A stretch of DNA of 56,132 nucleotides from Spirochaetia bacterium (GTDB lineage: Bacteria; Spirochaetota; Spirochaetia; Treponematales; Rectinemataceae): positions 1 to 56,132 of the forward strand of contig JARKOY010000131.1 in NCBI GenBank assembly GCA_029975555.1, written 5' to 3'. Of the stretch, positions 8,739 through 12,194 are shown piece by piece. The notes below the pieces were generated by a model, which saw only the letters and a program-made list of their open reading frames with translations, ran no database searches and was not told the DNA's origin. A program made the position numbers and the translations under genes. Numbering within the stretch: the stretch's first letter is position 1; each line of letters opens with the position of its first letter.

Positions 8739-9810
8739 TTCGAAGCGAGAGGCTGCCTCCTGCTTGTGGGAAGGCATCGCCTCGCCCTTTGAGCCCATGC
8801 GGGCAGACAAATACCTCTCCGAAATCCTCAAGGTAATGAGCCGTTCCCAGCTCAAGGCGCGCGGCGCCCGCCTTTTCTGCAACGGCAAGGACGTGAAGCT
8901 TTCCCACAGGCTCAGAGGTGGCGAACTCCTCCGCCTCGAGTGGACCGAAGCCCCTTCAGAAGAGATTGTCCCGGAACCGCTGCCGCTCAATGTCCTCTAC
9001 CATGACGGAGATGTCTTTGTCATCGACAAACCTCAGGGTATGGTGACCCACCCCGGGGCCGGCAATTGGCGCGGGACCCTGGCGAACGGCGTGCTCTGGC
9101 TCGAACGCGGCGGTGGCGCCGATTCTGGGTGTGCCGACGCAGCGGAATGCCCTGAATTTGCGCCTCCTCCCCGCGCAGGGATCGTCCACCGTCTAGATAA
9201 GGACACCTCCGGCGTCATCATCGTCGCCCGCACCGCCTTTGCCCACGAATTTCTCTGTCGCCAGTTCCGGGAGCGGCAGGCTCGCAAGGAATACTACGCC
9301 ATAGTGATGGGCGTGCCGCCCGCCACCAAGGGGCGCATCGACACCTGGCTCGCCCGAAGCCCCCGGGACCGCAAAAAATTTGCGGTGAGCCAGCCCGGCC
9401 GAGGCAAGCACGCCCTCACGCTGTATGCCGTGCGCGCCGTATGGAGCCTTTGCGCCCCGACTGCGGAGGCGGGCCCCCGCGAAGGCTCCCGCGGCATAAC
9501 CACGGCCACACATCATAGTTTCAGTCGTCGGCCTCGGACCTATTCTCTCCTCGCCCTCTACCCAAAGACCGGGCGCACCCACCAGCTCCGCGTCCACTGC
9601 GCCCACATAGGCTGTCCCATCCTCGGCGACCCCATCTACGCGAAGAAGGACCCCATCTTCCCCGATGCGACCCTCATGCTGCACGCCCGTCGCCTCAAAA
9701 TCAGCCTGCCTTCGCGTTCCGCCCCCTCGATCTTCAAAGCTTCTCTTCCTGAGCGCTTCAAAGATATTATCGCCTTTCTGAGCGCCAGAGGAGAGGCGCC
9801 CAAGGGATAA
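8725..9810 (+). CDS. RluA/RluD-family 23S rRNA pseudouridine synthase
   Basis: It is a pseudouridine synthase of the large RluA family, probably acting on large-subunit rRNA. An S4 RNA-binding domain occupies about residues 25-70 (RADKYLSEILKVMSRSQLKA). The catalytic motif is HRLDKDTSG, and the C-terminal signature is YPKTGRTHQLRVHC with GDPIY. Compared with RluD there are two extra loops, one Cys/Pro/Ala-rich before the catalytic motif and one of about 25 residues before the YPKTG motif. The start at 8725 has GGATGG just upstream and overlaps truA by 14 bp; longer forward readings from 8368 are shadow sequence. It ends the dxs operon; a hairpin follows at once. The exact rRNA position cannot be told. 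Confidence 0.9.
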   Translation: MSANNSKREAASCLWEGIASPFEPMRADKYLSEILKVMSRSQLKARGARLFCNGKDVKLSHRLRGGELLRLEWTEAPSEEIVPEPLPLNVLYHDGDVFVIDKPQGMVTHPGAGNWRGTLANGVLWLERGGGADSGCADAAECPEFAPPPRAGIVHRLDKDTSGVIIVARTAFAHEFLCRQFRERQARKEYYAIVMGVPPATKGRIDTWLARSPRDRKKFAVSQPGRGKHALTLYAVRAVWSLCAPTAEAGPREGSRGITTATHHSFSRRPRTYSLLALYPKTGRTHQLRVHCAHIGCPILGDPIYAKKDPIFPDATLMLHARRLKISLPSRSAPSIFKASLPERFKDIIAFLSARGEAPKG

Positions 9811-9816
9811 AAAAAA

Positions 9817-9842
9817 CCGACACAGGGCGAACCCTGTGTCGG
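9817..9842 (-). terminator. Convergent intrinsic terminator
   Basis: An 11-bp perfect stem (CCGACACAGGG / CCCTGTGTCGG) with a CGAA loop lies between the rlu gene and the convergent RRM gene. On the minus strand it is followed by a run of U (the A-tract at about 9809-9816), so it is a textbook terminator for the RRM gene. Forward transcripts meet the same stem but have only a short UCGUU tail, so the dxs operon probably also ends here, less sharply. Confidence 0.85.
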
Positions 9843-9913
9843 TCGTTCAGCCATCTTCTGGCCTTGTGGAAAAGCGTGCGCCGGCGGCGAGGCGCACAGG
9901 CTTTGTGCCCTGT

Positions 9914-10210
9914 TTAGTACTTGCGGCCTCTGTATCCGCCGTTGTCTTCTCTTTCGTAGCGGGGCTTCTCCTGCGCTTCGTTCACGCGGAGCTGTCGACC
10001 CATGAATTCCTGACCATTGAGCGCGGCGATGGCGGCATCGGCAGCCTCGGCGTTCTCCATTTCGACAAAGCCGAATCCCTTCGCCTTGCCGGTGAATCTG
10101 TCGACGATGATGTTCACGGAAGAAACATCGCCGTACTGAGCAAAGAGATCCTGGAGCTGGCGCTCGGACGTGTTGTAATTCATGTTACCGACATAAATTT
10201 TCTTGGACAT
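9914..10210 (-). CDS. RNA-recognition-motif (RRM) protein
   Basis: A 98-residue single-RRM protein that should bind single-stranded RNA. RNP2 is IYVGNM near residue 5 and RNP1 is KGFGFVEM near residue 43, both with the aromatic residues that stack on bases. A basic Gly/Tyr/Arg-rich tail (GGYRGRKY) ends the protein. Similar small bacterial RRM proteins are common in spirochaetes and cyanobacteria and are often cold-induced. The 5' region is unusually long: a good minus-strand promoter lies about 340 bp upstream with a terminator-like hairpin in between, so expression may be attenuated. It ends at the terminator 9817-9842. Confidence 0.93.
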   Translation of the reverse strand: MSKKIYVGNMNYNTSERQLQDLFAQYGDVSSVNIIVDRFTGKAKGFGFVEMENAEAADAAIAALNGQEFMGRQLRVNEAQEKPRYEREDNGGYRGRKY

Positions 10211-10384
10211 TTCGGAAAAACCTCAAATCTTGGCCTCGTCCTCTCGACGTCGGCCGGTTTGATCCGCCTAGGGCGAATCGGAAGCGACAACGTGGAAGTA
10301 CAATACCGCGCCGACAGTCTTCAGAGGAGAAATTAGAGAACTGTTCTGATTATTGTTGGTCTTTCCGAATGAAACACGAAGAGG

Positions 10385-10517
10385 AAAAAAACCGGCGCGT
10401 GCGTCAGCCGCCGTCAGCAGGCCGGTGCTACGAAAGAAAAAACAATGCATGAAACAGCCAATTCCAACCTGAAAACATGGGGAAGGCAATTGTCCTTCCG
10501 CAGTTTTCGCTTATCTT
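10385..10517 (-). ncRNA. Candidate small RNA or attenuated leader of the RRM gene
   Basis: This is a predicted minus-strand transcript of about 130 nt. It would start near 10517 from the promoter at 10525-10553. A first hairpin is formed by GGAAGG/CCTTCC (10481-10499). The transcript ends at a GC-rich stem, ACCGGC/GCCGGT (10391-10396 with 10421-10426), followed on the minus strand by seven U (10385-10391). No convincing protein is encoded. Because the RRM start lies 175 bases further on in the same direction, it may be a free sRNA or a leader with premature termination. No known RNA family was recognised. The inference rests only on promoter-plus-terminator layout. Confidence 0.45.
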
Positions 10518-10524
10518 GTTTAAG

Positions 10525-10553
10525 TATATACACCTTTTACGGAGGATCGTCAA
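10525..10553 (-). promoter_or_regulatory. Minus-strand sigma70-type promoter
   Basis: Read on the minus strand there is TTGACG (10553-10548), a 17-bp spacer and TATATA (10530-10525). It points toward the candidate small RNA and the RRM gene, and is divergent from the rny promoter about 50 bp away. Confidence 0.5.
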
Positions 10554-10598
10554 GTGTATCGCCAGAAAAAGTCATTATTTATAAAAATGTAGACAAAC

Positions 10599-10626
10599 TT
10601 GACAAAGACCTCGCCATCGTTATAAT
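10599..10626 (+). promoter_or_regulatory. Consensus sigma70 promoter of rny
   Basis: TTGACA (10599-10604) and TATAAT (10621-10626) are both exact consensus hexamers with a 16-bp spacer. Transcription should start near 10633, about 30 bases before the rny ATG. A strong GGGGAGGAG ribosome site lies at 10651-10659. Confidence 0.85.
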
Positions 10627-10661
10627 CAGAATGACGGCATTATATACAAAGGGGAGGAGTT

Positions 10662-12194
10662 ATGACACCTGTCGTGTGGTACATCGTCCTTCCTCTCGCC
10701 GGTCTTTGTCTGGGATGGATGATCCGCTGGCTATATGCCAGATTTCAACTCTCTTCCGCGGAACGGGAAGCAGAGCGTGTTTTGCAGGACGCAATAAAAG
10801 AGGCGGAGGCCAAAAAGAAAGAGCTCCTGGTAGAAGCAAAAGATCAGATCATTCGAGAACGAAACCAGCAAGAGAGGGAAATTCGTGACCGGAGAATCGA
10901 GCTGCAGAAGTATGAGCGGCGCGTTCTCCTCAAGGAAGAGAACCTCGATGCGAAGCTCGCATCCATAGAGCGCATCGAGGCGAATCTTAAAAACAGAGAA
11001 AATGCGATCGCCGAAAAGGAAGCGTATCTCGCAGGTCAGGAAGAGCGCTACGCTGCGGAGCTCGAACGCGTCTCGGGCTTCACTGCCGAAGAGGCCAAAA
11101 AGCTCATCATGCAAAACATGGAGCAGGAGGCCCGCCGCGACGCGCAGGTTCTGCTCAACAAAATTGAACAAGAAGCCCAGCTTACGGCGGAGAAGAAGGC
11201 CAAAGACATCGTCATCACGACGATCCAGCGCATCGCGACCGAGTCCACTGCGGAATCCACGGTGTCCTCGGTCAGTCTGCCTTCGGACGAGATGAAGGGG
11301 CGCATCATCGGGCGAGAGGGGCGCAACATCCGCACCCTCGAAACGCTCACCGGCGTCGACATCATCATCGACGACACGCCGGAAGCGGTCGTCATCTCCT
11401 GCTTCGACCCGATCCAGCGCGAGATCGCCAAGATTTCGCTCGAGCGACTCATCGCCGACGGCCGCATCCATCCGGCGCGCATCGAGGAGATGGTGCAGAA
11501 GGTCACGCGCGAGATCAACCAAAAGCTCTACGACGAAGGCGAGAAGGTGGTATTCGACCTCGGGCTGCACAACATGGCGCCCGAGCTCATCCGGGCAGTG
11601 GGGCGGCTCTACTACCGTACGAGCTACGGACAGAACGTCCTCATGCACTCGAAGGAAGTGGCGGTCATCGCGGGGCTCCTCGCCGCCGAGCTCGGCCTCA
11701 ACCGCGAGATTGCAAAGCGCGGTGCGCTTCTGCACGACATCGGCAAGGGCATCGTCACCGACAGCGACAAGAACCATGCCGAAATCGGCACCGAGATCGC
11801 CAAGAAGTTCGGAGAGGATGCCAGGGTCATCAACGCCATCGCCTCGCACCACAACGATGTCGAGCCCAATTGCCCAGAGAGCGTCATCGTGCAGATCGCC
11901 GATGCGATTTCCGCAGCGCGCCCCGGCGCCCGCCGCGAGACCTTGGACAACTACATCAAGCGGCTCGAGGACCTCGAGGCCGTGGCCGAGAGCTTCTCCG
12001 GCGTCGAGAAGGCCTTCGCCATCCAGGCCGGCCGGGAGCTCCGGATCATTGTCAACAACGAACAGGTCTCCGACGAGCAGGCCAAGGAACTGTGCAAGAA
12101 CATCGCGAAGAAGATCGAATCCGACCTGCGCTATCCCGGCAGGATCAAGGTGACCATCATCAGAGAGACGCGCATAGTGGAATACGCCCGATGA
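10662..12194 (+). CDS. rny: Ribonuclease Y
   Basis: This membrane-anchored endoribonuclease starts bulk mRNA decay where RNase E is absent. An N-terminal helix (about residues 3-24, VVWYIVLPLAGLCLGWMI) anchors it. A long charged coiled coil follows (about residues 30-190, rich in E, K and R). The KH RNA-binding domain has GRIIGREGRNIRTLE, and the HD hydrolase domain has the metal pair H358-D359 in LLHDIGKG. At 510 aa the protein is full length. It has its own consensus promoter, and its stop overlaps the start of ymdB as ATGA. Confidence 0.97.
   Translation: MTPVVWYIVLPLAGLCLGWMIRWLYARFQLSSAEREAERVLQDAIKEAEAKKKELLVEAKDQIIRERNQQEREIRDRRIELQKYERRVLLKEENLDAKLASIERIEANLKNRENAIAEKEAYLAGQEERYAAELERVSGFTAEEAKKLIMQNMEQEARRDAQVLLNKIEQEAQLTAEKKAKDIVITTIQRIATESTAESTVSSVSLPSDEMKGRIIGREGRNIRTLETLTGVDIIIDDTPEAVVISCFDPIQREIAKISLERLIADGRIHPARIEEMVQKVTREINQKLYDEGEKVVFDLGLHNMAPELIRAVGRLYYRTSYGQNVLMHSKEVAVIAGLLAAELGLNREIAKRGALLHDIGKGIVTDSDKNHAEIGTEIAKKFGEDARVINAIASHHNDVEPNCPESVIVQIADAISAARPGARRETLDNYIKRLEDLEAVAESFSGVEKAFAIQAGRELRIIVNNEQVSDEQAKELCKNIAKKIESDLRYPGRIKVTIIRETRIVEYAR

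Follow-up and report, generated by a model that had tools for sequence, protein, structure and literature searches.

A conserved candidate kissing loop between the 5' and 3' untranslated regions of an RRM-protein mRNA in the Rectinemataceae

The stretch of DNA that we analyzed (hereafter the window, 56,132 nt) comes from a Rectinema-like spirochaete and contains on its minus strand an interval, 10385-10553, that the initial annotation had read either as a small RNA or as the leader of a nearby gene encoding an RNA-binding protein with an RRM domain. Comparison with related genomes indicates that this interval is the promoter-proximal (5') half of the approximately 305-nt leader of the RRM mRNA, and not a separate sRNA. 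One of its hairpins (P2) has a loop complementary to that of a 3' UTR hairpin of this gene, usually the terminator, and we consider it probable that a conserved 5'-3' UTR kissing loop formed by the two controls the stability or the translation of the RRM mRNA. The comparisons showed the leader to be conserved and, by prediction, folded, with co-variation in P2, in a second hairpin (H4) and between the two loops.

The close relatives of the source genome include Rectinema subterraneum and treponeme-like MAGs, and the family group that we compared (Rectinemataceae, Spirochaetes) comprised 30 genomes. The RRM gene (9914-10210, minus strand) encodes a protein of 98 aa (Pfam RRM_1, E = 1.2e-25). 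Its divergent neighbor is rny, encoding RNase Y (10662-12194, plus strand), upstream of which a sequence scan detected a promoter of perfect consensus, TTGACA-16-TATAAT (10599-10626, plus strand). The divergent pair was seen in every family genome in which both genes were found. Both are genes of RNA metabolism whose arrangement has been kept through the family, and they may be under shared control. Second copies of the RRM gene are present in several family genomes (G029:C52, G028:C53, G015:C348, and G021:C32), where the six-frame match spans an in-frame TAA.

The minus-strand promoter claimed in the initial annotation is indeed present. It consists of a -35 box TTGACG (10548-10553) and a -10 box TATATA (10525-10530) separated by a 17-nt spacer, both at positions conserved in the relatives, and an alternative -10 box, TATACT, lies 2 nt further on (10528-10523). 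The RRM transcript is expected from this predicted promoter to start near 10517. The extra hairpin that had been noticed at 10481-10499 (minus strand), GGAAGGACAATTGCCTTCC, is the first hairpin of the leader and its stem is kept in Rectinema; the GC-rich stem followed by seven T could likewise be located in the window. A mechanical scan alone would not single out the interval 10385-10553. Such a scan lists the hairpin at 10499-10481, in a region with about twice as many terminator-like sites as its own shuffles, and it missed the RRM promoter because the -10 box ends in A and the GC stem because its loop exceeds 8 nt. Seven Rectinema genomes share the promoter position, the 10481-10499 stem and the GC stem, and this recurrence places all three above chance.

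The leader extends over 10211-10517 on the minus strand and is conserved in the family. The promoter, several hairpins and structures proximal to the Shine-Dalgarno sequence were found together upstream of the RRM gene at all Rectinemataceae loci with both ends, and a promoter with a long structured 5' UTR was also recovered in three genomes of one genus from another family. The genome search returned the leader as a single significant copy in its own genome. No Rfam family reached the gathering score (the whole window gives a tRNA only), and nothing relevant appeared over 9800-10700 at E values up to 5.

An open frame runs through the leader in most genomes, with recurring GKT and LKT motifs, and across the family the frame containing GCG-GYC has no stop for about 55-100 codons, as it might if the leader encoded a conserved small protein or a leader peptide. 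We find this scarcely credible, as each codon position holds a similar number of variable sites (28/27/30 in Rectinema, 41/41/46 in the other main group) with no third-position excess, and in the family comparison the start codons of the frame are not conserved and its ends vary. The even spread and the unconserved starts point to an RNA element, not a gene, in agreement with the initial reading that the interval held no clear protein. A 73-codon frame that overlaps the leader at 10268-10489 might be taken for a small gene in annotation; the substitution pattern argues against this.

The P2 hairpin, which had originally been taken for a terminator stem, occupies 10391-10426 (minus strand) in the window, where it has the Rectinema form with a large loop. 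Its GC stem pairs ACCGGC (10426-10421) with GCCGGT (10396-10391) and is followed by a run of seven T (10385-10391). Outside Rectinema, the P2 loop is 7 nt long (GGCGGYC) and the P2 stem varies in sequence with its pairing kept, and pair counting across genomes recovered changes on both sides at 8/8 pairs of the stem. The sequence after the P2 stem reads TTTTTC, ATTTTC, CACC (G006) or AACTTC (G002) in relatives, and several Rectinema genomes and all other genera have lost the T-run but kept the stem and the loop. The succession of promoter, GC stem and T7 in the window would fit a 3' end at this run, near 10385, for either a stand-alone sRNA or a terminator-type attenuator, but the T-run is unconserved even within the genus and the loop of the GC stem is longer than 20 nt, which makes this reading very unlikely. 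The attenuator of the initial annotation is not supported, given the loss of the U-tract within the genus and its absence elsewhere in the family, where P2 has a conserved loop. The proposed sRNA loses its support with the same U-tract, whereas the other half of that proposal, a leader of the RRM gene, is supported: the promoter and the hairpins are kept, and conservation in the relatives locates the stems ahead of the orthologous RRM gene.

In the genera other than Rectinema, the reverse complement of the P2 loop, GRCCGCC, sits in the loop of the 3' terminator hairpin of the RRM gene itself. In Rectinema, the partner is often a hairpin other than the terminator, located between the latter and the RRM stop codon, as it is in the window. 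There, the P2 loop segment CGGCGGC (10407-10413, minus strand) has its complement in the 3' UTR, GCCGCCG (9882-9888, minus strand, facing 10413-10407), located 26-32 nt past the RRM stop codon, and the predicted duplex CGGCGGC/GCCGCCG has an energy of -14.1 kcal/mol. This partner segment belongs to the loop of a 3' UTR hairpin that we call K, GTGCGCC-TCGCCGCC-GGCGCAC (9876-9897, minus strand), the central element of the arrangement and one that was out of sight for the initial annotation. The same UTR contains a second hairpin, GGCCA..TGGCT (9849-9863, minus strand), similar in the relatives, and the intrinsic terminator of the RRM mRNA detected by the terminator scan (9815-9844, minus strand).

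Across the compared genomes, both partners are located in hairpin loops on supported stems and the 3' hairpins have U-rich tails, Rectinema being the weaker case. Its loops are larger, and the matches cover 5-7 bp with little covariation and with G-U pairs in L003 and L004, so that for Rectinema, including the window, the claim depends on homology to the genera with better support. In the window mRNA, the minimum-energy fold also puts part of the P2 loop into other pairs.

When the terminators were picked blind to complementarity, 15 of 19 genomes had an exact 7-nt complement of their own P2 loop and the other four had 5-6 nt; in L015, L022, L023, and L024 the match covers only 5-6 nt. Differences in one loop were mirrored in the other. 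At loop position 6, a C in the leader corresponds to a G in the 3' loop, and a U in the leader corresponds to an A in L012, L013, L014, L018, and L023; the U of L022 faces a G, a wobble pair observed once. The co-variation from C-G to U-A at this position concerns four lineages, and L013 has in addition a G-C to C-G exchange at loop position 1. In a genus of the second family (L025, L027, and L089), the leader loop is CGACGGC and the terminator loop GCCGUCG, and an unbiased loop-loop scan found this same site. The covariation of the two loops spans 13 genera and two families. On the RNase Y tree (20 genomes), four separate changes are required to account for the U-A state at loop position 6, or a forced minimum of two if only strongly supported branches are trusted. 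All four A states of the 20 tree genomes are found among the five U states, for which the chance is about 0.001 under independence.

The true pairings obtained a score of 86 versus a mean of 70.8 for swapped pairings, and this score was reached in 8 of 20,000 swaps (one genome per genus, blind terminators). Permutation of the partners among 23 genomes, with kinship ignored, reached the observed pairing in none of 20,000 trials. The kissing helix was 97.6% paired, with changes on both sides at 4/7 pairs, and 91.9% of the cells were paired when P2 and the kissing helix were considered jointly. Their covariation score was 0.642 versus 0.203 in shuffled alignments (0/500 reached it) and at most 0.163 when slid; the register of this alignment was set using the complement, and the swap test with blind terminators is the check on that choice. 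The P2 and 3' loop pieces were aligned with constant artificial anchors between and around them, as MAFFT without anchors shifted the second family. Three to four of the loop positions are nearly invariant GC and pair easily by chance in GC-rich genomes. By the covariation score and the swap test, the complementarity between segments of the two UTRs of the RRM mRNA is beyond chance.

Among 191 terminators predicted in 40 stretches from 10 family genomes, nine had a comparable loop and two of these were the RRM gene's own, so that such terminator loops are not a general habit of these genomes. The same device was also sought in RRM paralogues and in other families, where loop-loop matches of at least 7 nt occurred in 4 of about 58 cases, in unrelated places. 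Judged by these scans, the partner loop is specific to the RRM gene. Hairpins with a GGCGGYC loop were considered as a possible regulon and rejected, since in the approximately 800 kb sampled from these genomes they occur elsewhere at background level; no other targets of that form were thus seen. This lack of excess weighs against a model in which the 3' UTR hairpin, released or trans-acting as a small RNA, would pair with the leader loop and perhaps with further mRNAs, chaperoned by the RRM protein. The model has precedents, as many sRNAs derive from 3' UTRs, and sRNAs are bound by RRM proteins in Bacteroides (PMC11697453), and cis and trans pairing are not separable by sequence. On balance, we regard it as unlikely.

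The complement of a motif on one strand is the identical motif on the other, and the conserved loops could therefore also be read as protein sites. The leader hairpins would then be bound by a protein, for example the RRM protein, with GGCGGYC as the site and its 3' copy serving the mRNA of a convergent rluD-like gene, and no 5'-3' pairing would take place. The terminator could indeed serve both genes where the neighbor is convergent, and RbpB of Bacteroides binds its own mRNA, which carries an RbpB site (PMC11697453). However, in L015 and L016 the RRM gene is followed by a co-directional gene and no antisense mRNA is expected, yet the 3' loop is kept, and in Rectinema the hairpin sits between the RRM gene and its terminator. 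Both observations favor a function in the RRM mRNA. On the protein-site reading, four parallel C-to-U switches in both sites, and the switch to CGACGGC, would all have to be attributed to a co-evolving protein. We consider this reading quite improbable.

The leader contains other conserved elements closer to the start codon. The SD-proximal hairpin H4, GATTCGCC-CTA-GGCGGATC (10261-10279, minus strand), is conserved across the family, with 98.4% of cells paired, 5/8 pairs changed on both sides and a covariation score of 0.427 versus 0.228 in shuffles. The hairpin H5 (10232-10255, minus strand), located beside the Shine-Dalgarno sequence GAGG (10221-10224, minus strand), varies in sequence and keeps its stem in the relatives. 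Just downstream of P2, a purine box, TTCGGAAAGACC (10358-10369, minus strand), is identical in Rectinema and near-identical in the sister genera. This box is complementary over 12 nt, with one G-U pair, to the ribosome-binding site (10210-10224) and may possibly be an anti-SD element. The pairing is present in the predicted fold of the whole window mRNA, but the predicted folds of leaders alone disagree on how the ribosome-binding site is covered, so that here we only infer it.

Long leaders also precede the RRM paralogues and the RRM genes from other clades, but these lack the pair formed by P2 and the 3' loop. In another genus of the second family (L029 and L090-L094), the leader is short and without P2, and no 3' partner loop was seen. 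In L100, which belongs to another family, the shorter RRM leader retains just the SD-proximal hairpin, CCGCC-CTA-GGCGG, which suggests that this hairpin is the older core of the leader. Another group of RRM genes in a second spirochaete family (L102-L105 and L146) has a different and strongly conserved leader, GTTGGAAACGAATCGTG..GAGGACCGTGAACCTGTTGGAT.., which looks like a separate RNA element.

We propose that the P2 loop kisses the loop of the 3' UTR hairpin within one molecule of RRM mRNA. Because the 3' partner is made last, this end-to-end contact would form on full-length transcripts only. The resulting clasp might shield the leader from endonucleases, by analogy with hbs of Bacillus subtilis, or it might shift the leader between forms hiding and exposing the ribosome-binding site, which the purine box can cover. 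One may further conjecture, from the examples of RbpB and of the cyanobacterial rbp leaders, that the RRM protein binds the clasp structure and that its own level is regulated in this way; on the same analogies, control by the RRM protein itself is plausible. A fuller version of this scenario, a dedicated end-to-end clasp in which the terminator hairpin is the kissing partner, only completed messages are closed, and the RRM protein recognizes the clasp and tunes its own mRNA, appears doubtful to us as a whole. If the kissing loop is real, the end-to-end closing of a bacterial mRNA would have been under lasting selection, as reflected by compensatory changes in many genera, and it would give a hint at the control of RRM proteins, which are widespread yet poorly understood in bacteria. 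The two loops would also offer a clean 7-nt pair for swap tests.

In kissing complexes of the ColE1 RNAI/RNAII type, stable stems carry loops of about 7 nt that are complementary over their full length. The candidate pair described here resembles them in these respects, but the ColE1 loops belong to two RNAs from opposite strands, whereas both loops are here in one mRNA. Few bacterial mRNAs are known in which the UTRs pair with each other (RNAIII, icaR, and hbs), and the extension of such pairing to other genes was said in a review to need further study (PMC7821165). In B. subtilis, the interaction between the 5' and 3' UTRs of hbs was reported to shield the 5' UTR against RNase Y (Braun et al., 2017, doi 10.1093/nar/gkx793, cited through PMC7821165). 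In the terms of that description, hbs is similar to the RRM gene in the pairing of the 5' and 3' UTRs of the same mRNA and in encoding a small abundant nucleic-acid-binding protein, and the enzyme warded off in hbs, RNase Y, is encoded by the gene adjoining the RRM gene here. The hbs interaction, as summarized there, covers 14 nt, whereas the pairing proposed here involves two hairpin loops of about 7 nt predicted from sequence.

In Staphylococcus aureus, the icaR mRNA has a 3' UTR element that pairs with its own 5' UTR (PMC3868564; PMC7821165). The icaR ribosome-binding site pairs with a UCCCC motif, which is absent in S. epidermidis, whereas the RRM pair is widely conserved and its leader site precedes the start codon by about 180-240 nt, and thus does not correspond to an anti-RBS 3' UTR of the icaR type. 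RNAIII of S. aureus also has a long-range contact between both ends of one RNA (PMC7821165), but it is a dual-function virulence RNA, whereas we are dealing here with an ordinary mRNA and its terminator loop. The cyanobacterial rbp genes resemble our case, by description only, in being RRM genes with a conserved leader, consisting there of cold-response boxes in the 5' UTR; no 5'-3' pairing is described in the available portion of that account (PMC9333190). In the open-access literature, most subscription journals being outside the scope of the search, we found no earlier report of the pairing proposed for this gene. UTR-UTR pairing is known as a kind, and what is new in the pairing proposed here is its loop-loop form, the terminator hairpin as partner, the compensatory conservation over many genera and the gene concerned.
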